Part shown: positions 7,763 through 36,254 of the stretch, piece after piece
Layout of the letters: each line of letters begins with the position of its first letter
How positions within the stretch are numbered: the stretch's first letter is position 1
Origin: Actinomycetota bacterium
GTDB taxonomy: Bacteria; Actinomycetota; Actinomycetes; S36-B12; UBA10799
Length of the DNA stretch: 41,361 nucleotides
NCBI GenBank assembly: GCA_963169255.1
Contig: CAUJEJ010000209.1
Coordinates: 1 to 41,361 of the forward strand
Direction: 5' to 3'
Program-made: the position numbers and the translations under genes
Notes under the pieces: model-generated
What the model was told of the DNA's origin: nothing
Databases searched by the model: none
The model's input: only the letters and a program-made list of their open reading frames with translations

Positions 7763-7770
7763 CCGTGAAT

Positions 7771-7813
7771 CCTCACCTCGACGTCATAAGCTTGAGGTCA
7801 AATCTAGTCGAGG
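7771..7813 (-). promoter_or_regulatory. acnA 5' leader with overlapping inverted repeats next to the Shine-Dalgarno
   Basis: Minus strand CCTCGAC-N24-GTCGAGG and TGACCTC-N14-GAGGTGA (one mismatch), immediately before TGAGGA-N8-ATG. Confidence 0.35.
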
Positions 7814-7905
7814 CCAAAGTGGGCCGCGGCAGCGACCACAACCTTCAAAGCCAGCGGGGACGATGGCCCCCACAGCGAGAACCGCCCACAGCAATCATGG
7901 CCGGG

Positions 7906-18006: not shown

Positions 18007-18031
18007 CTGCGAGTCTCGCTATTCGTCTCTG

Positions 18032-18478
18032 CTACTCAGCAGATTCGAGGGTAATACTGATCGAGTTTATGCACCAACGCTGGTCCGTCGGTGTGCCATA
18101 ACCTTCACCCTCGAACACGTGCCCGAGGTGTGAACCACAGTTGGCGCAACGGGCCTCAGTCCGCACGGACATCAAGGACCGATCCTCAACAAGCTCAACC
18201 GCATCGCCCGCCATCGGCGTGAAGAACGATGGCCAGCCGCAATGGGAATCAAACTTCGACGATGAGGAAAAGAGTTCGGCCTGGCAAGCGCGACACCGAT
18301 ATACGCCGACAGTCTTGGTGTCGGTGTACTCACCCCTGAAGGCCGCCTCCGTGCCGGCCTCGCGCAGAACGTGGTACTCCTCTTTGGACAACGACTCTTT
18401 CCATTGCTCCTCGGACTTGGAGACCGGATAGGGCGTGCCGTCCGGACGCAACGGACCGTCCTTCTTTGGACTACTCAT
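18032..18478 (-). CDS. msrB: Peptide-methionine (R)-S-oxide reductase
   Basis: 148 aa; GVYRCRACQAELFSSSSKFDSHCGWPSF, CANCGSHLGHVFEGEGYGTPTDQRWCINSISI. Confidence 0.96.
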   Translation of the reverse strand: MSSPKKDGPLRPDGTPYPVSKSEEQWKESLSKEEYHVLREAGTEAAFRGEYTDTKTVGVYRCRACQAELFSSSSKFDSHCGWPSFFTPMAGDAVELVEDRSLMSVRTEARCANCGSHLGHVFEGEGYGTPTDQRWCINSISITLESAE

Positions 18479-18484
18479 CTCACT

Positions 18485-19243
18485 TCACCTCACATCGGCC
18501 AAGAACGACGAAAGCTCACGACGGCGCCCGGTGTAGAACGGAATCTCCTCGCGCACGTGAAGGCGCGCGCGTGACGCGCGCAGGTGACGCATGAGGTCCA
18601 CGATCCGACTCAAGTCGTCGGCTTCGAATGCCAAGATCCACTCATAGTCGCCGAGCGAGAAGGCTGGGACGGTGTTCGCCCTCACGTCCGGGTACTCGCG
18701 ACCCATAATCCCGTGTTCCATGAGGAGTTCGCGCCGCTCTTCATCGGGCAGGAGATACCACTCAAATGACCGCACGAACGGATACACCGAAACGAATTCG
18801 CGCGCGCGTTCATCTGCAAGAAATGCCGGTACGTGGGACTTGTTGAACTCCGCTGGCCGATGCAACGCCATCTGCGACCACACCGGCACAAATGCGCGCC
18901 CGACCGAAGTACTCAAGACGGCGTGGTACGCCGTCTGCAACGCGGTGCTCGTCTCTGCGTGGGACCACAACATCAGGTCGGCGTCGGCTCGAAATCCCGC
19001 GACGTCGTACCAACCACGGACGACAACATCGTCGGATTCCCGCAGCGACGCGAGTGCCTCATCTACCTCAGTGACCGCATCGGCCGGAAGTGCTGCGAGC
19101 GCGGCACGATCTACCTTGAACACCGACCACATCGTGTAGCGAAGGACATCGTTGAGGTCACGCGCCTTGGGCTTTGTCGCTTGCGGCGGCGTTGACGATT
19201 CAGGAGTGGGGTGGGCAGGTACGGACGCAGTGTCATCAGCCAT
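18485..19243 (-). CDS. hemQ: Coproheme decarboxylase / chlorite dismutase-like HemQ
   Basis: 252 aa; Cld-family features including [58 protein letters not shown]; next to cgoX. Confidence 0.95.
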
Positions 19244-20909
19244 GAGTCCATTGTCCCCGCTCGCTCATGTACGCCACGATCTGCCCTGCTGCAAACTGTG
19301 CCGACCCGACGCACGCCGCGATGCCGACGCCGTCGTATGCGGCCCCGCAGACTGTGATGCCCGGGCTATCGACAAGTGCCTCACGCACCAGCGCCATCCG
19401 TCCACGGTGCCCCACGGTGTACTGCGGCAAGGCGTCGTCCCAGCGATTCACTCGCGAAGCTAGCGGACGTGACGGCAAGCCGGCGATTTTGGTGAGCTCG
19501 CCGGCAGCGAGCTTCGCGAGTTCTTCGTCGGAGTTCTGCAGAATCCCTGGCTCGCCAAACCTCCCAAGAGACGCGCGGACGACCATGAAGCTCCGCCGAT
19601 CGCTCGCCGAACTCCGCCCAGCCTTGTCCGCGCCGTTTCCTCGCTTTCCGCCGGCCGCACCAGCCCGTGCAACCCATGACCACTTGCGCGACGAGAACGT
19701 CGCCGCCTTGATAGAGAAGCCCTCCACTGGCGGCACCAGGAAGCCACTGCCTTGCACTGTCGCGGGGACCTCATCGGGGGCGTAAAGGAACGTCGTAAGC
19801 GCAACACTCGCGTACCCGACTGTGTCGAGAGCGGAGGCCGCAGTTGGGTTCACCTTGCGGAGCAACTTCGCTGCGACGGGCGCGGGTACTGCCATGACGA
19901 TTGCGTCGACGGTCCTACCGTCTCGATCACCCTTCTCGCCGGTGATCACGCGCCAGCCGTGAGCTGTCTTGCGAATGCTGGTCACCTCTGTGGCGCGATC
20001 GATCGTCACACCCCGACGTTCCAGTCGATCTGCGAGCGCTATCGGCAACCGGCCGACACCGCCCGAGATCCCAGCAAACACCGGTCCTCGGCGTGCACCG
20101 CTGGGCGCAGCACCAGTCTTACGTGCCTCCTTCGCAGCAGCAAGCAGGGAACGCTCACGACGAGCGAGACGGAACAGCGCGGGCACCGTCATCTCTAGGC
20201 TGAGTTCCTCTGCGCGTCCGGCGTAGACCCCACCGAGCATCGGCTCGACCAGTCGATCAACCACCTCGCGCCCCATTCGAGTCGCAACGTAGTCACCAAC
20301 GGACACGTCGCCGGGGATGGTGGTTTGTGGAAGTACATGATCGAGCGGGATCCGCATCAAACCCGGCAGGGACATCACATTGCTTGCGGCGAGCGCGCGC
20401 AAGTCAGTCGGGATTCCGCTGATCAGGCCAGTGGGAAGCGGCCGAAGCACACCATCGGAAACCACCGCAGCCGAGGACGTCGCTGGGTTGACGATTGAGG
20501 AAGCAAGCCCGACCGACTTCGCCAGGGCGATCGCTTCAGGACGCACAGCGAGTATCGACTCCGCGCCGGCGTCGAGTGAAAGCCCCTCGAGTTCATTCAG
20601 TCGCAGCTTCCCGCCCACAGATGGCGATGCTTCGTAAACAATCACGTCGGCATCAAAGTTGCGGTCCCGCACGATTGACCATGCTGCCGCCAGCCCCGAG
20701 ATACCGCCGCCGATCACGGCGACGGTTCGGGCTTGAGGCTTCTCCTCCGCACCGATTGTCACTGCGGCGGTGTCAGCATCGGCGGCGCTCGACTTGCCGG
20801 TCAGAGCGGCTTCAGCGATCTCGGCTACATCTTGAGCTAACGACGTCACGAGGTCACCGGCTATCAGCCGCAGACTCGGACGGGCTGCTGGTTTATCGGC
20901 CATGGCCAC
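19236..20909 (-). CDS. Coproporphyrinogen III / protoporphyrinogen oxidase (HemY/CgoX type)
   Basis: 557 aa; [71 protein letters not shown]. Confidence 0.95.
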
Positions 20910-21031: not shown

Positions 21032-21562
21032 CTACTTGATGGCGAGCCACTGTGCGGTGACGTCGAGCTTCCTGTTCGGAATGCCTAAGCGAGCGGCAAC
21101 CGACGCGACGAAAGTTGCCGAGTCTCGCAAACTGTCGTCAGCCTCACGGGTCGTCACTGCGGCGGTGCCAGCAGCAACAGCAGTTCGCTTTTCTGCACTG
21201 AAATGAAACAGGGCAGCCCACTCCGATAGCTCCGGCGCAATCCTGGACAACAATTGCCACACGTTGAGCGCGCGACCCCTGACGAGCCCGTTCGGCACGG
21301 AAGAGGTGCTCGCCCGAACGGCAACCATCGCAGCGGCTGCCCGCAAAGCGGCCAACTGCGCCGCAGCGAAGCGAGCGTTGGCGTCCTGCGCCTGGGCAGC
21401 GGCCACGAGCCCATCGACTGCTAAATCAACGAGTTGATGCGCTTCGCGCGGGACCGTCGTAACGACGGACGCACCTAGGCCAGCGAATCCACCGCCAGCA
21501 CCGGAGCCCGCTGGCGAGTTGGATGCTGCGACTGTCGCGGAGACCACTTCATTCGAACTCAT
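21032..21562 (-). CDS. SAV_6107-family HEPN-domain-like protein
   Basis: 176 aa; ANARFAAAQLAALRAAAAMVAVRA, NVWQLLSRIAPELSEWAALF, READDSLRDSATFV. Confidence 0.72.
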   Translation of the reverse strand: MSSNEVVSATVAASNSPAGSGAGGGFAGLGASVVTTVPREAHQLVDLAVDGLVAAAQAQDANARFAAAQLAALRAAAAMVAVRASTSSVPNGLVRGRALNVWQLLSRIAPELSEWAALFHFSAEKRTAVAAGTAAVTTREADDSLRDSATFVASVAARLGIPNRKLDVTAQWLAIK

Positions 21563-21568
21563 GTTCGA

Positions 21569-21598
21569 ACAGTAGGTGCTTTGCTATGCGCTGGTCAA
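21569..21598 (-). promoter_or_regulatory. Promoter with -35 TTGACC, 18-bp spacer, -10 TACTGT, 6 nt before the ATG
   Basis: Minus strand TTGACC-N18-TACTGT-TCGAAC-ATG. Confidence 0.65.
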
Positions 21599-21604
21599 CC
21601 TACT

Positions 21605-22924
21605 TTATTGGCGAGTCGAAGTTTGTTGATTCGAGTTCAACGCGTCGAGCACTCCACTGATGCGAACGACCAGCTCATCGACGTCCATGAGTGGGTTCGA
21701 CCCAACCTGACGTACCCATCTGCGACCGTCAGCGATCCCGAGGCCGGCAACCTTTCGGCCCAGCCCCGCCAAGACGTCGTCCGTACTGTGCGTCGTCGAT
21801 CGCCACAGGAGAACCCCTGAGACCGGACTGTTGAATACGTCCACGTCAGGGCGTTGCCGCAGCGCTTCGGCCAAAGCCATCATCGCGTCAATCCCGGAAT
21901 CCACCCAAGCGGCAAGTCCATCCTCGCCATACGCCAGCAGGAGTAGCGTCAGCGCCAAGGAACGGTCAGCGCGAGATCCGAGCAGACCTACCTGAGTGGT
22001 CTCGTCGGGTCCGGCGAACTCGAGCACCGAATCGGATCTCGCGGCGTCCTTGAACAAAACGACGGCCGACTCAGTTGGCTGAAACATCATCTTGTGAGCC
22101 GAGATGGTCACCGAATCTGCACCGTCAATTCCCTTGAGCAGCGGCCGCCGACGATCAGAAAGCGCGAGTGGGCCCGCCCATGACGCATCCACATGCCACC
22201 ACGCAGGCCTTAGACCCAAATTGCTCAAACCCTTCATCGCGTCACGAAGGGGGTCAATCGCGCCGGTGTTCTGCGTCCCTGCGGTCAGAACTACCGCCGT
22301 CCGGCTCATCCCGTCCGGATCACGGCGAGCAAAGTCGATCAGCGCGTCCATGTTCATGGACTCATCCGGATTACTGTCGATGAAGATCAGCGGCATACCG
22401 AGCACACGAGCAACTTTGCTCACCGAGACTGAACTTGCCTCGGACGTCACGATCCGGGTGGCGCCAGAGCCGTCTCGGGCGGCCCACAACGCCGTCAAGT
22501 TGGCGATAGTCCCACCCGGCACGAAGTGCCCCGTCGCCATTCCCCACAGCGGAGAGAGCCAGCCAATGACCCGATCCTGCAGTTCGTTGACTTGGGGCGT
22601 ATCTGCTTTGTGCAGCAGGTTCTCACTGCGGGAGGCGGACCATACGGCGGCTGCCCACGTTAGCCATGGCGTCGGGGTTGCCATTCGCGATGCCGCCATA
22701 GGGTCGAGCAACGAGGACGATTGAGGTAGTGCGATTTGCGCGACCAATTCAAGGGCGGCTTGTGGGCCGATGCCCCGCTCTGGCATCGCTAGCGGCAACT
22801 CATCGAGCGCCGACGGATTGGTGTCAGGAGGGTCAACGACGAGATCTAGCGCGAACCGCAAGGCGTCAAGATCTGGTTCGAAGGGCTCGCGATTGCTCCC
22901 ACTCTGCACATTCACGTAGACCAT
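21605..22924 (-). CDS. Group II pyridoxal-phosphate-dependent decarboxylase family protein (start may extend to 23020)
   Basis: GHFVPGGTIANLTALWAARD, WWHVDASWAGPLALS, DSVTISAHKMMFQPTESAVVLFKD (PLP Lys). Confidence 0.87.
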   Translation of the reverse strand: MVYVNVQSGSNREPFEPDLDALRFALDLVVDPPDTNPSALDELPLAMPERGIGPQAALELVAQIALPQSSSLLDPMAASRMATPTPWLTWAAAVWSASRSENLLHKADTPQVNELQDRVIGWLSPLWGMATGHFVPGGTIANLTALWAARDGSGATRIVTSEASSVSVSKVARVLGMPLIFIDSNPDESMNMDALIDFARRDPDGMSRTAVVLTAGTQNTGAIDPLRDAMKGLSNLGLRPAWWHVDASWAGPLALSDRRRPLLKGIDGADSVTISAHKMMFQPTESAVVLFKDAARSDSVLEFAGPDETTQVGLLGSRADRSLALTLLLLAYGEDGLAAWVDSGIDAMMALAEALRQRPDVDVFNSPVSGVLLWRSTTHSTDDVLAGLGRKVAGLGIADGRRWVRQVGSNPLMDVDELVVRISGVLDALNSNQQTSTRQ

Positions 22925-22974
22925 ATTGACCAGTTGTTCACCTAGTTGCCCATCGAGGACGATTCCTGCGCAAC

Positions 22975-22980
22975 TACCGT
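22975..22980 (+). promoter_or_regulatory. -10 element TACCGT, 6 nt before crtA ATG
   Basis: TACCGT-TGGTGC-ATG. Confidence 0.45.
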
Positions 22981-22986
22981 TGGTGC

Positions 22987-23736
22987 ATGCCTCACGCTGC
23001 GACCCCCATGCCGAGCGCACCGGTGGTGACGGTTCACCTCTGGGGCGTGCCTACCAGGGCAATCCCAGGGTCCCTTGTTCGGATGGCGACGGGGCGGCGA
23101 AAGATCCGCCGGATTCACGGCCTGCGGTTCGCGAAACTCCTCGGCACTGGATCCGGCGAGACCTTCAGCGTTCGTGATGCGGACTTCCACCATTGGGGGC
23201 TCATCGCGTGTTGGGATGACGAGTCAGACGCTCGCGTCTTCGAGCTCAGCTCGCTGGTGACGACGTGGGACCACCACAGTTTCGAGAAGGCCCGGTTTGC
23301 GCTTGCGCCGGTGAGCAGCCGCGGTCTGTGGTCTGGCGAGGATCCGTTCTCTCCATGCGTTCGCCACCGAAGTGACGGACCTGTCGCAGCGATCACTCGC
23401 GCGCGGATTCCGATGCGCCATTGGCGCCGATTCGCTCGCGCGGTTCCACCGGTTGCCGACGCCACCTCCCACGCGCCCGGTCTGATCGTGCGCACCGGAA
23501 TAGGCGAGGCACCCGTTGGCCTGCAGGGCACCTTCTCGGTTTGGCAGGACTCCAGTGCACTCAACGCCTTCACCACGGGAGCTGCGCATCAACGCGTCGT
23601 CGACGACACCGCCCGAGTCGGTTGGTACAGCGAGGAACTGTTCGCACGGTTCGGCGTGACCAGCGCAACCGGCACCTTCTGCGGCACGGCGGTTGATGCC
23701 CACACCCTGCCGCGAATTGGCGATGAACATGACTGA
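22987..23736 (+). CDS. crtA: Spheroidene monooxygenase (CrtA)-like protein
   Basis: 249 aa; KLLGTGSGETFSVRDADFHHWGLIACWDDESDARVF, RGLWSGEDPFSP, GPVAAITRARI, RTGIGEAPVGLQGTFSVWQDSSALNAFT, GWYSEELFARFGV. Confidence 0.82.
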   Translation: MPHAATPMPSAPVVTVHLWGVPTRAIPGSLVRMATGRRKIRRIHGLRFAKLLGTGSGETFSVRDADFHHWGLIACWDDESDARVFELSSLVTTWDHHSFEKARFALAPVSSRGLWSGEDPFSPCVRHRSDGPVAAITRARIPMRHWRRFARAVPPVADATSHAPGLIVRTGIGEAPVGLQGTFSVWQDSSALNAFTTGAAHQRVVDDTARVGWYSEELFARFGVTSATGTFCGTAVDAHTLPRIGDEHD

Positions 23737-24607
23737 GCGGAACGTCACCGAGCAGATCAGCCATTCGCCGACGAATGGCCAGGCCCAGCGTCCCGTTGAG
23801 CTTTGGTGGCTTCCCGCCGTCGGTGCTGCCCTCACAATTTTCTTGCAGATCATGTGGCCACTTGCCGACGGCCAACAACGAACTGTCCTGACGATCGTCA
23901 CGGTGATGGTGTTCGCGGGGACGAGCGTCGCGCACGCATGGCTCAACTTCGGAGCCGGCTGGGCACTTAGCTACCTCGGCATCACCTTCGCGTTTGCATT
24001 CGCGATTGAGGCTGTCGGTACGGGCACCGGCTTCCCCTTCTCGCCCTACGACTACACGAGCGCCTTGGGCATCCAAGTTTTGTCCGTCCCGCTCATCGTT
24101 CCGCTCGCTTGGGCCATGACCGCTTACCCCGTCCTGCTGCTCGCCCGCAGACTTACCAACGCGCTCGGTGGTGGGCACGCGTACCGCATCACCTGCTCCG
24201 CAATCGGTGCGCTCGCAATGACTGCCTGGGATCTGTTCTTGGATCCTCAGATGGTCTCTGCGGGGTATTGGATCTGGGCTCCGAACCCAACCTCGTTGCC
24301 AGGTGTCCCGGGCATTCCGGCCGTCAACTACCTCGGTTGGCTCGGAGCAAGCTTCGTTCTGATGTTCCTGCTGTCGTACCTTCCTGCCCGCAATGTCTCG
24401 GAGGTCGTTCCCGCGACATTGTGGACGTGGACCTGGGTCGGCGGGATCGTGTCCAATGCGTTCTTCTTTGATCGACCAAGCGTTGCATTCGTTGGCGGGG
24501 TCGCGATGGCGGTCGTCACTATCCCGTACCTCTGGTTACTGATAACAGGGCGCGGCGACGGGACGCTCTCAGCTACCGAACTTAGTCGGCAGGCCGCGAG
24601 CGCATGA
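23729..24607 (+). CDS. cruF: Carotenoid 1',2'-hydratase, CruF-like (start may be 23723)
   Basis: Polytopic; FAIEAVGTGTGFPFSPYDYTSALGIQVLSVPLIVPLAWAMTAYP, TAWDLFLDPQMVSAGYWIW, GIPAVNYLGW; ATG overlaps the crtA stop. Confidence 0.85.
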   Translation: MTERNVTEQISHSPTNGQAQRPVELWWLPAVGAALTIFLQIMWPLADGQQRTVLTIVTVMVFAGTSVAHAWLNFGAGWALSYLGITFAFAFAIEAVGTGTGFPFSPYDYTSALGIQVLSVPLIVPLAWAMTAYPVLLLARRLTNALGGGHAYRITCSAIGALAMTAWDLFLDPQMVSAGYWIWAPNPTSLPGVPGIPAVNYLGWLGASFVLMFLLSYLPARNVSEVVPATLWTWTWVGGIVSNAFFFDRPSVAFVGGVAMAVVTIPYLWLLITGRGDGTLSATELSRQAASA

Positions 24608-25746
24608 CCCGAGTCATTCGAACCCTTGCCGCCGCGAGCGCCATCGCTGCATCGATCGCCGCCGCGCACTCGATCTGGAATTCGCGGACACTGCCCACAG
24701 CAATTCCACCGGAACAACCTCGCGAACCTGGCGCGAACGTCGGGCGGATCAGCCTGCTGCTCCCCGCGAGGAACGAAGCGGAGAACATCTCTACCGCACT
24801 GACGTCGGCGATTCGGCAATCAGACGTCGACGAGATCATCGTCTTGGACGATGCCTCGACCGATCACACTGCGGACATCGCGACGGACCTCGCAGCGAAA
24901 GACTTGCGGGTGCAGGTGCATCGAGGGGCCGCTGATGGCCTCCCCCTTGGTTGGCTCGGCAAGGCGTGGGCGTGCGAACGACTCTCGCATTACGCGACGG
25001 GCGATGTTCTGGTCTTCATTGATGCGGACGTCGAACTCAACCCCGGTGCGGTCGCTGCAGCGACCGCGATCATGCGCGACCTCGACCTTGACATGGTGTG
25101 TCCGTATCCCCGCCAGCAGACCACGACCGCGCTTACTCGCCTCGTGCAACCACTCCTTCAATGGTCGTGGTTGACATTCGTTCCCAATCACCTGTCGATG
25201 CGCAAACAACTGCCGTCGATGGCCGTTGGGAACGGGCAATTCTTGGTGGTCAACGCCGATTCCTATCGGCGCGTTGGCAGCCATGAGTCCGTAGCCAACG
25301 AGATCCTTGAAGACGTCGCGCTCGCGAGGGCGTTTCGCGTTGCTGGTCTTCGAACGGCAGTGGTCGACGGTAGCGCGATTGCACAATGTCGCATGTACAC
25401 CTCAGATCGAGCGCTCGTCGACGGCTACACCAAGTCGCTCTGGAGTGCGTTCGGAAGTACCCCGGCCGCTGTCACGACGATGGCAGTGTTGACTCTCGTG
25501 TACGTGCTGCCCGCAGTCCTAGCGATCGTGAGTAGGGACCAAGCGACGCGGCGATGGGGTGCGCTTGGTTATGTCGCTGCCGTAGGCGGACGCGTTGCGG
25601 TCGCCCGACGAACCGGTCAACGGGTCTGGCCTGATTCCCTTGCCGCACCGGCTTCGGTTGTCTCTCTTGCGGCACTCACCGGGCTGTCGCTGTTACGACA
25701 TCGCCGGGGAACGATCACGTGGAAGGGTCGCGCGCTCCCCCGCTGA
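24604..25746 (+). CDS. cruG: Family 2 glycosyltransferase, CruG-like
   Basis: 380 aa; ISLLLPARNEAENISTAL, IIVLDDASTDHTADIA, VLVFIDADVELNPGA, ATGA overlap with cruF stop. Confidence 0.82.
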   Translation: MTRVIRTLAAASAIAASIAAAHSIWNSRTLPTAIPPEQPREPGANVGRISLLLPARNEAENISTALTSAIRQSDVDEIIVLDDASTDHTADIATDLAAKDLRVQVHRGAADGLPLGWLGKAWACERLSHYATGDVLVFIDADVELNPGAVAAATAIMRDLDLDMVCPYPRQQTTTALTRLVQPLLQWSWLTFVPNHLSMRKQLPSMAVGNGQFLVVNADSYRRVGSHESVANEILEDVALARAFRVAGLRTAVVDGSAIAQCRMYTSDRALVDGYTKSLWSAFGSTPAAVTTMAVLTLVYVLPAVLAIVSRDQATRRWGALGYVAAVGGRVAVARRTGQRVWPDSLAAPASVVSLAALTGLSLLRHRRGTITWKGRALPR

Positions 25747-25775
25747 TATCCGACTATCGGGCCCAGCGGTCGGCG

Positions 25776-26534
25776 CTACTCGTGGAGTGTCGCTGCCAAA
25801 TAGCGAGGTGCCTTGCCACGTACGGCCGACCACAAGCGAGTCCCGTTCTCAAAATGCCACCACTCGCAATCGAGCTGCACGAATCCGGCGTCCCACATCA
25901 CGCTGCGAAGTAGCCGCCGCAAATCCCGACTAACCGCGAGCGGATCGGTCTCGGCGACACCCTCCAACGAATTGGCGTGCGCCATCGGGACAAACTCGTC
26001 AAATCGCGTCCCGAGATTCAGCGGAACTGACTGCCAGGTCAGCGTCAGATCGACTGTCCCGCCTGTGGAATGCGGTGGCGGAGTCGTTGGGTCCGACGAT
26101 GCGGGGTTCACGAAGCCAACCGGAAGGCTCGCGTCTGAATACGCCAACGAATGCAGTTCGTTCTGGAGTTTGGGATCACGCCAGGCATCCCAAATGGCAA
26201 AGCCAAACCCCTCCGGCAACGCATCAACCGCATTGACCAGTCGCAGGGCCGCGCCTTGCCGCATGAGAGCTTCAGGCAACGAGTAGGGCCATCCGCTATG
26301 CCAATACGCGGCCAGCACTCGGATTCGTGGATGCCGAATATCAATCAACGGTTCATCACTTCCGTCTGCGTCGTCGCCAACCAACGGAAACGCGTTCCCC
26401 GACGGATCGCTGAGCAGCTCGGGAATCGGTAGCTGCGGAGGCAATCTGGGCAGGTCTGCAAGTGCAGAGGGATCCTCGCCACACCAGTCGTACGTCGGCA
26501 GCTTGGTGAGTCGCGTGCGGCGATCGATACTCAT
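25776..26534 (-). CDS. M15D family D-alanyl-D-alanine dipeptidase (VanX-like)
   Basis: GFGFAIWDAWRDPKLQ, HSTGGTVDLTL, DCEWWHFENGTRLW (zinc ligands and catalytic Glu). Confidence 0.87.
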   Translation of the reverse strand: MSIDRRTRLTKLPTYDWCGEDPSALADLPRLPPQLPIPELLSDPSGNAFPLVGDDADGSDEPLIDIRHPRIRVLAAYWHSGWPYSLPEALMRQGAALRLVNAVDALPEGFGFAIWDAWRDPKLQNELHSLAYSDASLPVGFVNPASSDPTTPPPHSTGGTVDLTLTWQSVPLNLGTRFDEFVPMAHANSLEGVAETDPLAVSRDLRRLLRSVMWDAGFVQLDCEWWHFENGTRLWSAVRGKAPRYLAATLHE

Positions 26535-28050
26535 GGCTCTATGGTCGAGCACCGTGGCAAAGGTTGTCGTAGTCGGGGCTGGAATTGGCGGCATGGCGAC
26601 TGCCGCGCGCCTGAGCGTCAAGGGCCACCACGTGACCATCCTTGAACAGTCGGACAAGGTCGGCGGAAAAGCGGGCGCGTACCGACGCGATGGTTTCGTC
26701 TTCGACACCGGTCCGAGTTTGGTCACTCTGCCCGCGGTGTACCGCGATCTGTTTCTCAAGACTGGTGCCGCGCTCGAGGAGTGCGTGGACCTTCAACCCG
26801 TGGAACCGGGCACCTCGTATCGCTGGGCAGATGGTTCGGCGGTCACGTTGCCTGGTGTCAATCCCGCGGCGGCCGCGACTGCGCTGGGCGAGGCTTTTGG
26901 CGGTTCATCGCGCGAGGACTGGCTCGCGCTGACCGCTCGGGCAGCCAAGATCTGGGCGCTGACCCGGCGGCCATTCCTCGAATCTACGCTTGACGGTCCG
27001 CGCGATCTGCTGGATTTGGCACGTAGTCCTCGTGACGTGGCCACCGTTGCGCCGACCACAAGTCTTCGGCGCCTAGGCAAGAAGTACCTGAAAGATCCGC
27101 ACCTTCGGATGCTGCTCGATCGCTACGCGACATATTCCGGCTCAGACCCGCGTAAGGCGCCGGCCGCACTTGCGACGATCCCGTACGTCGAACAGACATT
27201 CGGGAGCTGGCACATCGGCGGCGGTGTCCACCAACTTGCAACTGCACTAGCTCAGCGGTGCGCCGAGCGCAAGGTCGACATTGAGCTCAACACCGACGTT
27301 GTCCGAGTGGCGACGGCGAACGATCGAGTCCGTGGCGTTGAGCTGGCAAATGGCGACGTGATCGCCGCAGACATCGTCGTCTCGAATGCCGACGCATCCC
27401 ACCTCTACGGCGACCTCCTCGACACTCCCCCGGCGGATGCAGCGCTGCAGCGCCTAAGCAAGGCGACCCCGTCATTCTCGGGATTCGTGATGCTCTTAGC
27501 TGTTCGCGGGCGTACGCCAGGAATCCAACATCACAACGTTTGGTTCCCGGCTGACTACGACGCAGAATTCGACAGCGTCTTCTCCGGCAAACCTGCCGCT
27601 GATCCGACGATCTATGCGTGCGTCCCCAATGACCCGTTGATGCGACCAGACGCTGATCACGAGTCCTGGTTCGTCTTGATCAATGCACCACGACACGGGA
27701 CAAGTAAGCACACATTTGATTGGTCCGATTCAGCATTCGCCAACACCTACGCCGACAGGGCGATCGCGACTCTGGCCTCGCGTGGCGTCGACCTGCGCAG
27801 CCGAATCCTGTGGCGCGAACTGATCACCCCTGCTGACCTCGCAACCCGCACTCGCGCACCTGGTGGCGCCATCTATGGCACCTCCAGCAACGGTATGCGC
27901 GCCGCCTTCCTGCGCCCAGCGAATGTCTCGCCGATTGCGGGGCTATACCTGGTGGGTGGTTCCGCACATCCGGGCGGTGGACTACCCCTCGTCGGCATGT
28001 CAGCCGAGATCGTGGCCGAGAAGATCGGGCGCGCCAAACGCCGACGTTAG
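26533..28050 (+). CDS. CrtI/CrtD-type carotenoid desaturase (start could be GTG 26554)
   Basis: VVVVGAGIGGMATAARLSVKGHHVTILEQSDKVGGKAGAYRRDGFVFDTGPSLVTLP; C-terminal LVGGSAHPGGGLPLVGMSAEIVAEKI. Confidence 0.88.
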   Translation: MALWSSTVAKVVVVGAGIGGMATAARLSVKGHHVTILEQSDKVGGKAGAYRRDGFVFDTGPSLVTLPAVYRDLFLKTGAALEECVDLQPVEPGTSYRWADGSAVTLPGVNPAAAATALGEAFGGSSREDWLALTARAAKIWALTRRPFLESTLDGPRDLLDLARSPRDVATVAPTTSLRRLGKKYLKDPHLRMLLDRYATYSGSDPRKAPAALATIPYVEQTFGSWHIGGGVHQLATALAQRCAERKVDIELNTDVVRVATANDRVRGVELANGDVIAADIVVSNADASHLYGDLLDTPPADAALQRLSKATPSFSGFVMLLAVRGRTPGIQHHNVWFPADYDAEFDSVFSGKPAADPTIYACVPNDPLMRPDADHESWFVLINAPRHGTSKHTFDWSDSAFANTYADRAIATLASRGVDLRSRILWRELITPADLATRTRAPGGAIYGTSSNGMRAAFLRPANVSPIAGLYLVGGSAHPGGGLPLVGMSAEIVAEKIGRAKRRR

Positions 28051-28078
28051 GCGCCTGCGGCGAATCACCGCCTAGCGC

Positions 28079-28951
28079 TCACGCCTTGCGAAACTGCAAC
28101 ACGGCAATTCTGATCATGACAAGGCCCATCACCACGATGATGATGACCTCAAGCCAGATCGGAACGAGCCAGTCTCCCCACGTCACTCCGCTGACGAACT
28201 GTTGGCCCGCGGGACCCACGTCGATGAACGCGAAGATAGTTCGCCGAACCAGATCAACCGCGTAGGTCAATGGGTTGATATGCGTGAGGATCGTCAACCA
28301 GGCAGGCAGGTTGTTCAGCGGGAATAGCGCACCAGACAAGAAGAACATCGGCAGCATGAGCACCTGGGTCATTGCCATGAACGCCTGGAACGTCTTGATA
28401 CGTGCCGCGATCATCACTCCGAACGCAGTGATCATCAACGCGATGAGCATCAGTTCGGCGACCACGAGCAGCATCATGAGGGGGCTGTAAGGAACGCCGA
28501 CCAAACCTGCTAGCGCGAGCAATAGCAAACCTTGGAACGTCGCCACCGTCGCGCCGCCGACAACTTTGCCGACGACGATTGCCCATCGACCTACCGGTGC
28601 GACAAGCATTTCTCGGAGGAATCCGAACTCACGGTCCCAGACGATCGAGCCCGCAGAGAAGACTGCGGTGAACAGCACCGCCAATGTCAGCACGCCCGGA
28701 AACAGGAATGTCCGAACGTTGATTTCTCCGGCGTCAGTGCCACTGAAGAGGCTAGACAGTCCCGTTCCCAGCACGAACAGAAACAACAGCGGTTGCATCA
28801 GCGAGGTGATCATCCGCAACCGGTCTCGCCGGAATCGGATGATCTCGCGTCGCCAGACCACCTTGATCGCGCGCCAGTCGCTGCGCCACGTCCTTGGCGG
28901 CACCGATACCGCTACGACCTGAATTGGTGAGGTTTCATCAATCGCAGTCAT
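28079..28951 (-). CDS. ABC-2 type transporter permease (DrrB-like)
   Basis: Start MTAIDETSPIQVV; MQPLLFLFVLGTGLSSLFSG, FLREMLVAPVGRWAIVVGKVVGG, FFLSGALFPLNNLPAWLTILTHINPLTYAVDLVR. Confidence 0.93.
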   Translation of the reverse strand: MTAIDETSPIQVVAVSVPPRTWRSDWRAIKVVWRREIIRFRRDRLRMITSLMQPLLFLFVLGTGLSSLFSGTDAGEINVRTFLFPGVLTLAVLFTAVFSAGSIVWDREFGFLREMLVAPVGRWAIVVGKVVGGATVATFQGLLLLALAGLVGVPYSPLMMLLVVAELMLIALMITAFGVMIAARIKTFQAFMAMTQVLMLPMFFLSGALFPLNNLPAWLTILTHINPLTYAVDLVRRTIFAFIDVGPAGQQFVSGVTWGDWLVPIWLEVIIIVVMGLVMIRIAVLQFRKA

Positions 28952-28955
28952 GGGG

Positions 28956-29963
28956 TCACCTCCGCCCGGCCATGTGCGCCGGCATTCCCGAGCCACGCGC
29001 CGGCCCTTGATCTGCGTCGCGGATCGACGACCCGGTGTGGGCCATGAAGACGTCGTCCAACGAGGGCCGCGCAACACTCACTGCGCGAATCGCCATCCCC
29101 ATCTCAAACAACTGGGGGACAAACTGTTCGCCGTCGGCCACCGCGAAGATCACCGTTCCATCGACGACCTGAGCGTCAATCCCGAACTTCTCTCCGATCG
29201 CGGTGATGGCCGCGTCGTTGTCGTCAGTGCGGATCTCTACGCGATCCTTACCCACTTGCGCCTTCAGCGCAGCCGGGGTGTCCAGCGCGACGATCTTTCC
29301 AGCGTCCATGATCGCGATTCGGTCGCAGTGGTCGGCCTCATCCATGTAGTGCGTGGTAACAAAGATCGTGATGTCTTCGGTATCGCGCAGTTGGTAGAGG
29401 TACTTCCAGATCGAACTGCGAGTCTGCGGATCAAGACCGACTGTCGGCTCGTCGAGGAACAACACCGTCGGCGAGTGCATGAGCCCACGAGCGATTTCCA
29501 GGCGCCGCTTCATTCCACCGGAGAACGTCTGGACTAACGAATCACGCCGGTCCCACAAACCGACCATCTCGAGAACCTGCTGCATGCGCGGACGTACGAG
29601 CGCTCTCGGCACTCCGTACAACTCGGCGTGAAACTCAAGGTTCTGAGCAGCTGACAGGTAGACGTCGAGTGTGGTCTCTTGGAACACAAGCCCGATGTTG
29701 CGGCGCACGTCGTCGCGTTGCGTGAGGACATCAAAGTCCGCCACCCGTGCGGTTCCGCCGGACGGATCCAACAGCGTGCACAGGATCGAAATAGTGGTGG
29801 ATTTACCGGCGCCATTTGGACCCAAAAATCCAAATGTCTCGCCGGAATACACCGTGAGATCGATCCCGCGCACGGCCTGAACATCGCCAAAGTCCTTGGT
29901 TAGACCTTCGACGAGGACCGCTGGGGCTGCTGCAGTGTCGATGTGACGCGGCAGTGCATCCAC
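28956..29963 (-). CDS. ABC transporter ATP-binding protein (DrrA-like)
   Basis: FGFLGPNGAGKSTTISIL (Walker A), QTFSGGMKRRLEIARGL (signature), LFLDEPTVGLDPQ (Walker B). Confidence 0.96.
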   Translation of the reverse strand: MDALPRHIDTAAAPAVLVEGLTKDFGDVQAVRGIDLTVYSGETFGFLGPNGAGKSTTISILCTLLDPSGGTARVADFDVLTQRDDVRRNIGLVFQETTLDVYLSAAQNLEFHAELYGVPRALVRPRMQQVLEMVGLWDRRDSLVQTFSGGMKRRLEIARGLMHSPTVLFLDEPTVGLDPQTRSSIWKYLYQLRDTEDITIFVTTHYMDEADHCDRIAIMDAGKIVALDTPAALKAQVGKDRVEIRTDDNDAAITAIGEKFGIDAQVVDGTVIFAVADGEQFVPQLFEMGMAIRAVSVARPSLDDVFMAHTGSSIRDADQGPARGSGMPAHMAGRR

Positions 29964-30002
29964 GTAGTTCCCCTTAGCTTCGACGTCGGGTGCGGCGAGC
30001 GA

Positions 30003-30803
30003 CTACTTCGTTGTCTTCGCCTTGACCGACGGCTTCTTGGCTGTTGCTGGCTTCCGTGGCTTCTTCGCTACGACCGCCTGGTTCGACCCAGTTGATCCGT
30101 CGTCCGTTGCAGACTTCGGCTTCATCGCGGCCGGCTCGGTCGCCAGAATCGCATACAGGTCACGCTGGGTAGATGCGAGTAGTTCCGCAGCAGCAGCAAC
30201 GTGTTCTGGTGATCCCACCTGACCAACCTGTCGGGCCGCCAGACTTATTCCATGAACGGCCTCGCGCAGTGACGAAGTGTCGTTGCCTCTACTTGACTCC
30301 CAAACTTGGGAGAGCTCAGTCCCGAACTCTTCAACGTACTGCTCACCAGCGGGAGTCAAATACGCTACGCCACGACGGGAATCATCTGCTTCAACTCGAA
30401 CCAGACCCTCATCCTGCAGCTGCTGCAGCGCGGGGTACACCGAACCGGGGCTCGGTTGCCAGGCACCTTCACTTCGTTCCCCGATCGCCTGCATCAACTC
30501 GTAGCCGTGGCGTGGCTGCTCTGCAATGAGCAGCAGGAGGGCGGACCGGACGTCACCGCGGCGGTGCCGACGGCCCCCGCGATAGCGGCCCGTAGAGCGA
30601 GGACTCGGTGGCCCGAGCAGCCCCAACGGGCCTGCATCGAGGTGGCGTTCAAAACGGCGCTGGCTGCGTTCACGAGCGCGGGTTCGTCGACTGTCGTCGG
30701 TGAAGGGTTTCGGATCGACCGAATCGATGGTGCCTGCATCTGCTGGCAGCAAGGTGTCGGCGATCTGGACGAACTTGTTGTCTTTTGTTGGCTTCTTTGG
30801 CAT
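30003..30803 (-). CDS. PadR-family transcriptional regulator with basic N- and C-terminal extensions
   Basis: LLLIAEQPRHGYELMQAIGERSEGAWQPSPGSVYPALQQLQDEGLVRVEADDSRRGVAYLTPAGEQ; start set at MPKKPTKDNKF. Confidence 0.9.
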   Translation of the reverse strand: MPKKPTKDNKFVQIADTLLPADAGTIDSVDPKPFTDDSRRTRARERSQRRFERHLDAGPLGLLGPPSPRSTGRYRGGRRHRRGDVRSALLLLIAEQPRHGYELMQAIGERSEGAWQPSPGSVYPALQQLQDEGLVRVEADDSRRGVAYLTPAGEQYVEEFGTELSQVWESSRGNDTSSLREAVHGISLAARQVGQVGSPEHVAAAAELLASTQRDLYAILATEPAAMKPKSATDDGSTGSNQAVVAKKPRKPATAKKPSVKAKTTK

Positions 30804-31016
30804 TTCATTCTCAATTCTTCTTGTGCCGCGGGGGCGGACTTTTCTCATCGCGCTCGACGCTGCTCGCATGAACCCAAGCGGGCCGCGTGCGCGTCGCGCA
30901 GTGCGACGTCGGCGAACGGCAGGTTCAGAAGGATTCGTAAACCGATGTGAGGCCAATCCGTGGCTATCACCACGGAGCCCATTCACATTCGCCAGATCAA
31001 TTCACCGACACCTTTA

Positions 31017-31026
31017 CGATATATCG
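31017..31026. promoter_or_regulatory. Perfect palindrome CGATATATCG upstream of padR, candidate operator over a -10-like region
   Basis: AT-rich palindrome in the padR upstream region; minus strand TTGCTT-N18-TATCGT fits a sigma-70-like promoter overlapping it. Confidence 0.4.
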
Positions 31027-31090
31027 GTAACTAATCGAGAAGCAAGCCTTTTTCGAAGAAAATATCCCCGAGGCCTCCCCAGTGAATGAA

Positions 31091-31807
31091 CTAACGCAGT
31101 CGACGAGCCAGCGTCAGTCCCACTTGCGCGAGACCAATCAACCCAGTCGCAAACGCGGCGGTGGCGCCGATCGATGCCCATGACGATGCGGCCACGCCGT
31201 ACGGCGCCCACGCCGCCAAGCCTAGGAAGACAGCCGCAATAACGATCCTGGTCGGCCGCTCCGAGATGCTGACGACCCCAACTTCACTAACCCCAACAAT
31301 CGCGGCACGCGCTCTCGCGTACTCCTGCACGAAGCCAATGAACACCGCACCGGCAACGATCCAGCCGGGCGCGCCGACGACCCACAGCGCGCCTAGGAGC
31401 GCCGCATCGGCGAATCGATCTGCCACCGAGTCAAGGACGTATCCCCCGCGAGTGGTTCGACCGGAAATGACGGCAACGGCACCGTCGAGGTTGTCGAGCA
31501 GGCCACTTAATGCGGTGACCGCAACTGCCAACCAGAGCCACACTGAATTCGACGCGTTGATACCGATCCAGCACAACAGTGGAACGGCGCCGGCAACAAC
31601 CACTCCGACAATCGTGACGCCGTTGGGTGAAAGCCCTGTCCGCGTTAGAGGCTTCGCTACGCGATACGCAAAGGTCAACCACCCACGGATTAGCGACGAG
31701 CCGCGGGGGTCGAGATCACCGTGTAGTTGCGACCACCGATCGAAGTAGGCATCGAGCGTTTCAACAGGTTCGCTGCGGCCGAACGACTGCTGATCATGTG
31801 CGCTCAC
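31091..31807 (-). CDS. CDP-alcohol phosphatidyltransferase family protein
   Basis: 238 aa polytopic; LSGLLDNLDGAVAVISGRTTRGGYVLDSVADRFADAAL (variant of the D-G-x2-A-R-x8-G-x3-D-x3-D motif). Confidence 0.85.
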   Translation of the reverse strand: MSAHDQQSFGRSEPVETLDAYFDRWSQLHGDLDPRGSSLIRGWLTFAYRVAKPLTRTGLSPNGVTIVGVVVAGAVPLLCWIGINASNSVWLWLAVAVTALSGLLDNLDGAVAVISGRTTRGGYVLDSVADRFADAALLGALWVVGAPGWIVAGAVFIGFVQEYARARAAIVGVSEVGVVSISERPTRIVIAAVFLGLAAWAPYGVAASSWASIGATAAFATGLIGLAQVGLTLARRLR

Positions 31808-31828
31808 CGGACAGCCCTGCTCATCGCG

Positions 31829-32710
31829 TCACTGTGCGGTGGCGCCGAGTCCGAGGTTCGCGTAAATGTCACGCGTCGCTGTGGATCGATTGAGGGTGTA
31901 GAAGTGCAGCCCGGGCGCTCCACCTTCGAGCAGTTCACGGCACAACCTACTCGCCATCTCGATTCCAAGATCCCGGACATAGTCGTCGCCCACCCGCTCG
32001 AATTCGGCTGCAACGTCAGCAGGGAAGTCGGCGCCCGACAGCGAGGCAAAGCGAGTGATTTGGGCCAAATTCGTGACCGGCATGATTCCCGGAATGATTG
32101 GAATCGTTACGCCTCCGGCGCGAGCCCGATCAACAAGTTGGAAGTACGCCGACGATTTGAAGAAGAACTGGGTGATCGCAAACTCCGCTCCGGCTTCCTG
32201 CTTTGCCCGCAGGACCTCGACGTCGACCTGAGCGGACATCGACGCCGGGTGTGGATCCGGGAACGCCGCGACACCGACGGAGAAGTCGCCGCTGCGGGTT
32301 GCGAGGGCGACGAGTTCGGCCGCGTAGTTGAGTCCACCCTCATGGGCGACCCATTGGTCGCCAGGTCCACCGGGCGGGTCCCCGCGCAGCGCAAGCACGT
32401 TGTGCACGCCCGCCGCCGCGTACTCATCGATGACCGATTCCAACTCGGAGACGGTGGCGCCCACACAGGTTAGGTGCCCCACGGGAACCATCTGAGTTTC
32501 CTTGGCGATGCGTCCAGTGATGCCGACGGTGCGATCGCGTGTGGTACCGCCAGCGCCATACGTCACCGAAACAAAAGTGGGTGCCAGCGGCTCAAGCTCA
32601 CCCAACGCCTTCCAAAGCTGCGCCTCACCAGCATCGGTCTTGGGCGGGAAGAACTCGAACGAAAACGACTGTGAACCTGTTGCAAGCAGGTCGCCTACAC
32701 GAACGGACAT
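31829..32710 (-). CDS. metF: Methylenetetrahydrofolate reductase
   Basis: FSFEFFPPKTDAGEAQLW, SVTYGAGGTTRDRT, HLTCVGATVSELE, LALRGDPPGG, FAITQFFFKSSAYFQLVDRA. Confidence 0.95.
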   Translation of the reverse strand: MSVRVGDLLATGSQSFSFEFFPPKTDAGEAQLWKALGELEPLAPTFVSVTYGAGGTTRDRTVGITGRIAKETQMVPVGHLTCVGATVSELESVIDEYAAAGVHNVLALRGDPPGGPGDQWVAHEGGLNYAAELVALATRSGDFSVGVAAFPDPHPASMSAQVDVEVLRAKQEAGAEFAITQFFFKSSAYFQLVDRARAGGVTIPIIPGIMPVTNLAQITRFASLSGADFPADVAAEFERVGDDYVRDLGIEMASRLCRELLEGGAPGLHFYTLNRSTATRDIYANLGLGATAQ

Positions 32711-32716
32711 CCCTGC

Positions 32717-32722
32717 AGCGTA
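32717..32722 (-). promoter_or_regulatory. -10 element TACGCT, 6 nt before metF ATG
   Basis: Minus strand TACGCT-GCAGGG-ATG. Confidence 0.45.
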
Positions 32723-32856
32723 GCGCCCACGCAAGCAACCGAGGGACGTTGCAACACCGGAATCACGCATCCGTTGCCGGAAGACTTGATCACGAAATCA
32801 GTGAGTGCAAATCCGCGAGATCGTGGTCCCGAACCAAACTGCTGCCACCTACCTCT

Positions 32857-32862
32857 TAGAGT
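32857..32862 (+). promoter_or_regulatory. -10 element TAGAGT, 6 nt before crtE GTG
   Basis: TAGAGT-GGACGT-GTG. Confidence 0.45.
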
Positions 32863-32868
32863 GGACGT

Positions 32869-33942
32869 GTGGCGACTACGGCTTCCCCGTTCGATGTCGA
32901 AGACGTTCGTGCTCGCGTGTCTCGCGCGCTGACGGAATACGTTGACGCACAAGTTCCGATCTTGGAGGCGATTAGCCTCGATCTGAGCCCTCTCAACGAC
33001 TTGCTCATCTCGTTCACCTCGGGCGGCAAGCGACTTCGCCCGGTCCTCGCCTGGTGGGGTTGGCGAAGCGCCGGTGGCGGTGACGACGACCGGATGATCA
33101 AAGCTGCTACCGCCTTAGAACTCTTGCAGGCATGTGCTCTCATCCACGACGACGTCATGGATGGATCTGACACCCGTCGCGGTGCACCCTCCGTCCACCG
33201 CTCTCTCGAAGCACTTCACCGAGCGGAGAATTGGTGCGGCTCGGACCAGACGTTCGGACTGTCTGGGGCAGTCCTACTAGGCGATCTGTGTCTGAGTTGG
33301 GCTGACCAAGTGCTCTTTGAGTCGGGATTGGAGTCAACCGCACTGCTGCGGGCAAAACCCATCCTTGACGCCACCCGAACCGAACTCATGGTCGGTCAAT
33401 ACCTCGATGTCCTTGAACAGGCACGGGCGCAGATCACGCCTGAACGGGCGCTACGTGTCGCGCGCTACAAGTCCGCGAAGTACACGATTGAACGGCCGCT
33501 CCATCTCGGCGTCGCGCTCGCAGGCGGGGACGCCGAGCTGATGGCGGCAATGAGCGCATACGGGCTTCCACTCGGTGAAGCGTTCCAACTCCGCGACGAC
33601 GTTCTTGGCGTATTCGGCGACCCACAAACGACGGGAAAGCCGGCCGGGGATGATCTGCGCGAAGGCAAGCAGAACTACCTGATTGCGTGTGCGTATCAAA
33701 CGGCCACCGCGGTACAACGGGTCGAACTCACTGAGGGACTCGGAGATCTCGGCCTCTCCATCGATGACATCGAATCGCTACGGCGCGTGATTGTCGAAAC
33801 GGGCGCACTTGAACAAACAGAAGCCCGGATTCGCTCGAGCACGGAGTCGGCGCTGTCCGCATTGACCGAACATGAACTCCGCAACAACGCGCGCGACGTG
33901 CTCGAGTCGCTCGCCATCGCAGCAACCAACCGCACTCACTGA
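32869..33942 (+). CDS. crtE: Polyprenyl (geranylgeranyl) diphosphate synthase
   Basis: 357 aa; GGKRLRPVLAWWG, LIHDDVMDGSDTRRG (first Asp-rich motif), FQLRDDVLGVFGDPQTTGKPAGDDLREGKQN; followed by crtI. Confidence 0.92.
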   Translation: MATTASPFDVEDVRARVSRALTEYVDAQVPILEAISLDLSPLNDLLISFTSGGKRLRPVLAWWGWRSAGGGDDDRMIKAATALELLQACALIHDDVMDGSDTRRGAPSVHRSLEALHRAENWCGSDQTFGLSGAVLLGDLCLSWADQVLFESGLESTALLRAKPILDATRTELMVGQYLDVLEQARAQITPERALRVARYKSAKYTIERPLHLGVALAGGDAELMAAMSAYGLPLGEAFQLRDDVLGVFGDPQTTGKPAGDDLREGKQNYLIACAYQTATAVQRVELTEGLGDLGLSIDDIESLRRVIVETGALEQTEARIRSSTESALSALTEHELRNNARDVLESLAIAATNRTH

Positions 33943-33964
33943 GCAAGAGACTGGAGCCACGTCG

Positions 33965-35431
33965 ATGAAACAGGTTCGCGGCAAGTCGGATCGGGTTGTC
34001 GTCGTGGGAGCCGGTTTGGGCGGCCTGGCAACAGCGATGCGGCTGGCCGCAGCTGGCCGCAGCGTCACGGTTGTGGAACGCGAGGCAGTACCGGGTGGCA
34101 GAGCGGGAATGTGGGAGGTCGATGGCCACCGGTTCGATACCGGACCAACAGTCCTGACCATGCCGAACCTCATTGACGATGTGTTTGAGTGTTTAGGCGA
34201 GAAGACAGCAGACTGGCTCGAGTTGCAAACCGTTTCACCGCTCTACCGGACGTACTACCCCGACGGCTCTCGCCTCGATGTGCATTCAAACCCGCAAGAG
34301 ATGGCTGCAGAGATCGACGCCAAAATCGGTCCCGATGAGGCAGGCAACTACCTTCGCTTCGTCGACTTCGTCAGCGAGCTCTACACCCTAGAGATGTCGG
34401 ATTTCATCGATCGCAATATTGATTCGCCGCTGGACTTGGTGACGGGAAACCTTGCACGCCTCGCCGCAATCGGCGGGTTCCGCCGGCTCGCTCCCAAGGT
34501 CAACGAGTACCTCAAGGACCCTCGAACACAACGGGTTTTCTCGTTCCAAGCGATGTACGCAGGTATGTCGCCGTTCGACGCCCTCGCGATCTACGCAGTG
34601 ATCGCCTACATGGATTCCGTCGCCGGGGTGTACTTCCCGAAGGGCGGGATGCATGCGGTGCCTGTGGCCATGGCCGCTGCCGCAGCCAAACACGGAGTCG
34701 AGTTTCACTACAACACCGAAGTCGCACAGGTTGAACGGTCCGGCGAGCGCGCGACGGCGGTGATCACAACTAACGGGCTGCGCATTCCGGCAGATGTGGT
34801 CGTCCTCAACCCCGATTTGCCGATTGCACACCGGGATCTGCTGAACCGAGAACCATGGTCAATCCGGCGATTGAACTACTCCCCCTCATGCGCGGTGCTC
34901 TTGGCCGGATCGAGCGCCACCTACTCGCAGATCGCGCATCACAACATTCACTTCGGGCGGGCCTGGAAGGGTGTGTTCTCCGAGCTCATCGATCAGCAGC
35001 AGATCATGAGTGACCCGAGCTTCTTCGTGACGAACGCGACCCACTCGGACCCCTCACTGGCCCCGGCCGGAAAACAGAACTACTACGTGTTGTTCCCAAC
35101 TCCGAACAACCGGGCGAACATCGACTGGAAGCAGTTTGGTCCGCAGTATCGAGATCAAATGGTCGCCACTCTTGAAGAGAATGGCTACATCGGATTCGGT
35201 GACTCGATCTCTGTCGAGAAGCTCACGACGCCGCTCGATTGGGAACAGGCAGGCATGGCAGCAGGAGCACCCTTTGCCGCGAGTCACTCGTTCACCCAGA
35301 CAGGGCCATTCCGACCCCGCAATCTCTGGGGCGAGAACGTGGTCTTCACTGGCTCTGGAACGACACCGGGAGTCGGAGTGCCGATGGTGTTGATCTCGGG
35401 GAAACTCGCCGCACAGAGGATCACGGGGTAG
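33965..35431 (+). CDS. crtI: Phytoene desaturase
   Basis: VVVVGAGLGGLATAMRLAAAGRSVTVVEREAVPGGRAGMWEVDGHRFDTGPTVLTMP; YFPKGGMHAVPVAMA; VVFTGSGTTPGVGVPMVLISGKLAAQRI. Confidence 0.93.
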   Translation: MKQVRGKSDRVVVVGAGLGGLATAMRLAAAGRSVTVVEREAVPGGRAGMWEVDGHRFDTGPTVLTMPNLIDDVFECLGEKTADWLELQTVSPLYRTYYPDGSRLDVHSNPQEMAAEIDAKIGPDEAGNYLRFVDFVSELYTLEMSDFIDRNIDSPLDLVTGNLARLAAIGGFRRLAPKVNEYLKDPRTQRVFSFQAMYAGMSPFDALAIYAVIAYMDSVAGVYFPKGGMHAVPVAMAAAAAKHGVEFHYNTEVAQVERSGERATAVITTNGLRIPADVVVLNPDLPIAHRDLLNREPWSIRRLNYSPSCAVLLAGSSATYSQIAHHNIHFGRAWKGVFSELIDQQQIMSDPSFFVTNATHSDPSLAPAGKQNYYVLFPTPNNRANIDWKQFGPQYRDQMVATLEENGYIGFGDSISVEKLTTPLDWEQAGMAAGAPFAASHSFTQTGPFRPRNLWGENVVFTGSGTTPGVGVPMVLISGKLAAQRITG

Positions 35432-35435
35432 CTCG

Positions 35436-36254
35436 ATGAATGGTTCCGGAATCGACATCTCCAGGCAAGGTGTTTCGTTCCTTGAAGCAGCAACACCTGT
35501 GCCAGTGGCGGCGGGACGGTCGGAGCTGCTCACAAGCGAGCATTGGGCGCAAGGCCGAACACAATTTGGGGGCCTGGTCGCCGCCGCGATGACTAACGCG
35601 ATGGCACAAGAATGCGACGACGACCTTCACCTTCGAACGCTCAGCGTTGCATTCGCCGCGCCCATCACTGCCGGCACCGCCCTGATTGACGCCACCCTCG
35701 ACCGAACCGGATCATCGACAGCATTCGCCTCCGCCGTGGTGAGCCAAGAAGGTGCTCACAAGGCCCGCGCTCACGCCATATTCGTTCGCAACCGTGACTC
35801 CGCGATCACAGTGGAACCCACGTTGCCCACGATGGACGTCGACCTAGCGCAGGCTCAGGAGTTCCCATTTATCGAAGGTGTTGTGCCGACCTTCCTGAAG
35901 AACTTCCAACTGCGCCTTGGGGTTGGCTCATTCCCGTTCAGCGGCGCCGCTCACGGCACAATCGGCGGCTACGCTCGTCACAATCCACCGATCGCGGGAA
36001 CGAGTGCGATTTTGGGACTGCTCGACGCCTGGCCACCGGCAATCTTGCCCATGGCGACCGGGCCTGCGGCCGGAAGCACCGTGAGTTGGACGGCGCACAT
36101 CTTGTCCGAGCCGCCCAGTGACGCCGATGCGTGGTACACGTTCCGATACGACACCATTGCCTCAGACGACGGGTACGCCACTTTCGTTGGAACTCTTGCT
36201 TGCGAAGGCAGAGTCATCGCGTGGAGTGAACAACTCGCCGCGGTCTTCGCCTAG
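35436..36254 (+). CDS. Acyl-CoA thioesterase-like hot-dog fold protein
   Basis: 272 aa; WAQGRTQFGGLVAAAMTNAM, LSVAFAAPITAGTALIDATLDRTGSSTAFASAVVSQEG. Confidence 0.75.
   Translation: MNGSGIDISRQGVSFLEAATPVPVAAGRSELLTSEHWAQGRTQFGGLVAAAMTNAMAQECDDDLHLRTLSVAFAAPITAGTALIDATLDRTGSSTAFASAVVSQEGAHKARAHAIFVRNRDSAITVEPTLPTMDVDLAQAQEFPFIEGVVPTFLKNFQLRLGVGSFPFSGAAHGTIGGYARHNPPIAGTSAILGLLDAWPPAILPMATGPAAGSTVSWTAHILSEPPSDADAWYTFRYDTIASDDGYATFVGTLACEGRVIAWSEQLAAVFA

Follow-up and report, generated by a model that had tools for sequence, protein, structure and literature searches.

A conserved actinobacterial carotenoid gene cluster, broken in one genus, probably directs a monocyclic glycosylated pigment

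Phleixanthophyll, a beta,psi-carotenoid glycoside with a 2'-hydroxyl, occurs in Mycobacterium phlei, and the sioxanthin genes of Salinispora reportedly lie in several separate loci. A complex-carotenoid branch is also said to have been described in acI freshwater actinobacteria by Dwulit-Smith et al. in 2018. Phleixanthophyll has likewise been reported from Nocardia kirovani (Guinand 1970, cited in PMC5822342). Sioxanthin is described as a monocyclic C40 carotenoid with a 1'-glucosyloxy, 2'-hydroxy, 3',4'-didehydro psi end (Richter et al. 2015; PMC8469146, PMC5765111), and its systematic name, given in PMC8469146, makes it the phi-ring counterpart of the pigment predicted below. In the myxol pathway of Nonlabens spongiae, CrtY, CruF, CrtD and CrtA-OH act in E. 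coli, the last three by hydrating, desaturating and hydroxylating a monocyclic carotene (PMC11855829). A first-pass annotation of the DNA analysed here had named myxol glycosides and sioxanthin as its nearest parallels, and these proved to be the right ones.

The window, by which we mean the whole 41,361-nucleotide stretch analysed, belongs to contig C209; the genome measures 2.78 Mb in 258 contigs and is estimated to be 95.3% complete. Family profile searches identified in it a psi-end module (CruF, CrtD, CrtA and a glycosyltransferase) encoded by an intact crtA-cruF-cruG-crtD block (22987-28050). The first gene (22987..23736, + strand) encodes a CrtA-type psi-end carotenoid C-2 monooxygenase (hydroxylase or ketolase), matched over residues 29-233 by NF045923 with 157 bits, under the curated cut-off of 300; the protein shares 41-66% identity with those of 17 relatives, with 42 invariant columns. 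The likely start of cruF (23723..24607, + strand), judged by inspection to be the ATG at 23723, overlaps the crtA stop, and its product, a carotenoid 1,2-hydratase, is detected by PF04240 (113 bits against a cut-off of 25) as well as by the TIGR03460 and CruF models. The following cruG-like gene (24604..25746, + strand) encodes a GT2 glycosyltransferase of the CruG/HpnB type (PF00535, 79 bits), for which the top NCBIfam model is CruG, with 113 bits and short of its cut-off of 600, and the next is HpnB, with 98. The last gene, crtD (26533..28050, + strand; likely start, by inspection, ATG 26533), encodes a CrtD-type 1-hydroxycarotenoid 3,4-desaturase that scores higher against the CrtD model NF045637 (365 bits) than against the general CrtI family (350 bits) and is 29% identical to the CrtI of the window. 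All four proteins fall under the strict curated cut-offs of the NCBIfam equivalog models, and their exact substrates and products are therefore predictions. An antisense D-Ala-D-Ala dipeptidase-like gene (25776..26534, - strand; PF01427, 63 bits), overlooked in the first-pass annotation, separates cruG from crtD, a position kept in a sister genome (G001) and in a further genome of the same family (G008); it probably stands outside the pigment pathway.

On the other strand, the region upstream of crtA (21032-23020) holds genes for a HEPN_SAV_6107 protein and a pyridoxal-dependent decarboxylase, the former kept at this position in many relatives and the latter in three. Two haem genes just upstream (18485-20909), hemQ (NF042928, 336 bits) and one for a protoporphyrinogen oxidase, occupy the same place in G001 and G008.

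A second intact block (32869-36254) comprises a crtE-like polyprenyl (GGPP) synthase gene (32869..33942, + strand; PF00348, 170 bits; NF042416, 309 bits), the phytoene desaturase gene crtI (33965..35431, + strand; likely start, by inspection, ATG 33965; TIGR02734, 511 bits against a cut-off of 238) and, directly 3' of the latter, an acyl-CoA thioesterase-like gene of the 4HBT_3 type (35436..36254, + strand; PF13622, PF20789). Genes for a CDP-alcohol phosphatidyltransferase and for MetF (31091..32770, - strand; PF01066, PF02219) precede this block, and many relatives have them in the interval from crtD to crtE; metF is a mere syntenic neighbour of the pigment genes. The split that the first-pass annotation had seen between crtD and crtE is an ancestral gap that is filled mostly by conserved neighbours. 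The gene calls themselves were borne out, all the named families being matched by the profile searches and the genes being intact, and chance is excluded as a source of the gene set because the gene order is conserved across the order.

No phytoene synthase was found within the window. The only crtB of the genome lies on another contig, C59 (18918-19685, + strand, 239.7 bits), so that GGPP synthase, phytoene synthase and phytoene desaturase are all present in the genome. Convergent with crtB are two lycopene-cyclase-domain genes, crtYd (C59 19677-20084, - strand, 135 codons) and crtYc (C59 20081-20539, - strand, 152 codons), which match TIGR03462 (cut-off 39.4) just below the threshold, with 38 bits, and above it, with 64 bits, respectively. 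The proline-acidic motif is intact in both products (PVEDLMF in CrtYd, PLDELLF in CrtYc), as are the motif P-x-[ED]-E-x-x-F in 24 of 24 CrtYc and the motif P-x-E-D in 29 of 29 CrtYd examined. The pair is a CrtYc/CrtYd heterodimeric lycopene cyclase arrangement, and the statement that no lycopene cyclase is visible holds for the window but fails for the genome. On the same contig, positions 17156-18766 (7156-8766 of locus L015) encode an MptB-type mannosyltransferase matching TIGR03459 (short name crt_membr), a frequent neighbour of crtB within the order.

Comparison with relatives outlined a common gene order. It runs from crtA-cruF-cruG-crtD, through a CDP-alcohol transferase gene (often with metF) on the opposite strand, to crtE-crtI, a GT87/MptB-type mannosyltransferase gene (in a subset only) and crtB, followed by crtYd-crtYc on the opposite strand, a PASTA kinase gene (pknB) and a DAHP-synthase-like gene. 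G008 carries the cluster unsplit, as do other families of the order. From crtA through crtB, the named isolates IMCC26077 (L061) and IMCC26103 (L109), which we take to be acI-type, share this arrangement; the cyclase genes follow crtB in L061 and were not found in the stretch of L109 examined. The window aligns lengthwise with contig C7 of G001, an assembly of 10 contigs, and C59 aligns with contig C6, with no window/C59 cross matches. In G008, crtI is directly followed by the GT87/MptB mannosyltransferase gene; in the window and in G001 it is followed by the thioesterase gene, which the unsplit G008 cluster lacks, and the mannosyltransferase-crtB-crtYd-crtYc-kinase block sits away from crtI in both genomes. 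These arrangements indicate a single break of the cluster right after crtI in the genus of the window, with the thioesterase gene at the break point, the larger piece in the window and the other on C59. Two species share the break, so it did not arise in assembling the window.

In a set of 60 genomes related by descent, the window's own included, CrtA was detected in 30, the cyclase domain (PF18916) in 52 and CruF in 50, and every one of the 30 CrtA-positive genomes carries both PF18916 and CruF. A collection scan for CrtA returned at least 597 stretches and at least 580 confirmed relatives, from which 80 loci were kept; these include Candidatus Nanopelagicales records and loci from the actinobacteria Frankia, Kineococcus, Gordonia, Nocardioides and Geodermatophilaceae. 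Of the kept loci, 59 extend 6.5 kb or more downstream; cruF, cruG and crtD lie beside crtA in 38 of these, and the 21 that lack this module include loci of the Geodermatophilaceae. In that family, L045-L055 and similar loci carry CrtA relatives with no cruF, cruG or crtD nearby. The locus is hence ordinary and widespread among actinobacteria, here in rearranged form.

What we observe is gene content, intact motifs, synteny and a shared break; from these we infer the steps, their order, the sugar and its position, the ring type, the choice between hydroxyl and keto group and the biological role. The product of the broken conserved cluster is, with good probability, a monocyclic 1'-glycosyloxy-2'-hydroxy (or keto)-3',4'-didehydro-beta,psi-carotene. 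CrtE, CrtB and CrtI would yield lycopene, one end of which CrtYc/CrtYd would cyclise to a beta-type ring (gamma-carotene). At the remaining psi end, CruF would hydrate C-1', CrtD would desaturate C-3',4', CrtA would oxygenate C-2' and the CruG-like enzyme would attach the sugar, giving a pigment that may serve as a membrane antioxidant. The psi-end chemistry that had been proposed earlier (1-hydroxy, 2-oxygenated, 3,4-didehydro, glycosylated) fits this enzyme set, and stands as a predicted chemistry. A one-ringed, sugar-bearing pigment is most likely because the ring-forming enzyme is encoded elsewhere in the same genome, and the best prediction would be a phleixanthophyll-like compound or a beta-ring analogue of sioxanthin. 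One-end and two-end cyclisation, like beta and epsilon rings, cannot be told apart in sequence, and a cyclase acting on both ends would add beta-carotene.

Other pathway genes were searched for in the genome, which at about 95% completeness may hold absent genes in its gaps. No C50 elongase (CrtEb/LbtA) was found among its UbiA genes, which are two only; there is no sign of such an enzyme because both proteins are CtaB- and MenA-like, their genes adjoining CtaA-like and MenE-like genes. A C50 product of the decaprenoxanthin type was rejected for lack of this UbiA-family lycopene elongase. None of the eight Amino_oxidase hits is CrtU- or CrtO-like, these being CrtI, CrtD, protoporphyrinogen oxidase, amine-oxidase-like proteins or partial Rossmann matches. 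The aromatic ring of true sioxanthin was accordingly set aside, the missing CrtU-like gene being a weak negative at this completeness. Hydroxylation of the ring at C-3 by CrtZ is ruled against by the absence of any PF04116 (FA_hydroxylase) match in the genome, in a search in which two controls were positive.

Among the alternatives, it is conceivable, if rather unlikely, that two products are made, with CrtYc/CrtYd generating bicyclic beta-carotene, converted to retinal in rhodopsin-bearing relatives, and CruF, CrtD, CrtA and CruG acting on lycopene or gamma-carotene. Rhodopsin (PF01036) was detected in 26 of the 60 genomes and a BCD-family retinal oxygenase in 8, so part of the order probably produces beta-carotene, but the same searches found neither gene in the family of the window. 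A rhodopsin antenna role in the window's genome was rejected on the absence of PF01036 matches in that family.

The first-pass annotation had favoured an acyclic product, a psi,psi-carotenoid that is hydrated, oxygenated and glycosylated at one end or at both, in keeping with a window devoid of cyclase genes and with psi-end enzymes able in principle to use lycopene. The genome search for further crt genes that it had proposed turned up crtB, crtYc and crtYd on C59, and thereby spoke against it: the cyclase genes adjoin crtB with their motifs intact, once belonged to the same cluster and are present in all the crtA-bearing relatives. An acyclic product was rejected on this cyclase, and we consider it improbable. 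Little probability also attaches to a glycosylated carotenoid with an undescribed end group, such as a 2'-keto glycoside, or with a further modification aided by the thioesterase and the exporter that this lineage has gained. It is very doubtful that the DrrA/DrrB-type ABC exporter and PadR regulator genes (28079..30986, - strand; family profile searches) and the thioesterase gene belong to the pigment system, for instance by exporting or acylating the glycoside, since, for all that the former lie between the two blocks and the latter is kept behind crtI in G001, the thioesterase gene is missing from the unsplit cluster, and exporter and PadR, being absent between crtD and the CDP-alcohol transferase gene on C7 of G001, are probably lineage-specific and unrelated to the pigment.

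The monocyclic glycoside stands as the preferred reading, and a step that appears missing from a contig-level reading can stem from one cluster break. In an order of actinobacteria most of which are uncultured, the analysis delineates a conserved arrangement of the genes for a monocyclic glycosylated carotenoid. For a widespread group it yields a pigment prediction that is concrete and can be tested, with an expected chemistry that is already known. The kind of pathway is known from actinobacteria, and the cluster is common to many relatives.

Among known systems, the acI lineages resemble the relatives of the window in the crtA-to-crtB gene order of IMCC26077 and IMCC26103, but often bear actinorhodopsin, whereas the window's family yields no rhodopsin match. 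Sioxanthin is likewise actinobacterial and monocyclic, with the psi end predicted here and with genes reportedly in separate loci; it differs in its phi ring, whose aromatic character requires an enzyme of the CrtU type, a kind not found in the window's genome. The myxol clusters of Nonlabens spongiae and Flavobacterium P99-3 share crtB, crtI, a lycopene cyclase gene, cruF, crtD and crtA-OH (PMC11855829), but employ a single CrtY in place of CrtYc/CrtYd and CrtZ for 3-hydroxylation, and a glycosyltransferase is not among the cluster genes listed in that source. The myxol pathway with a glycosyltransferase added and CrtZ removed therefore predicts a phleixanthophyll-like glycoside. Although the sugar, the acylation and a 2'-keto alternative could set the pigment of the window apart from it, phleixanthophyll is itself actinobacterial and has the structure predicted by the gene set of this genome.
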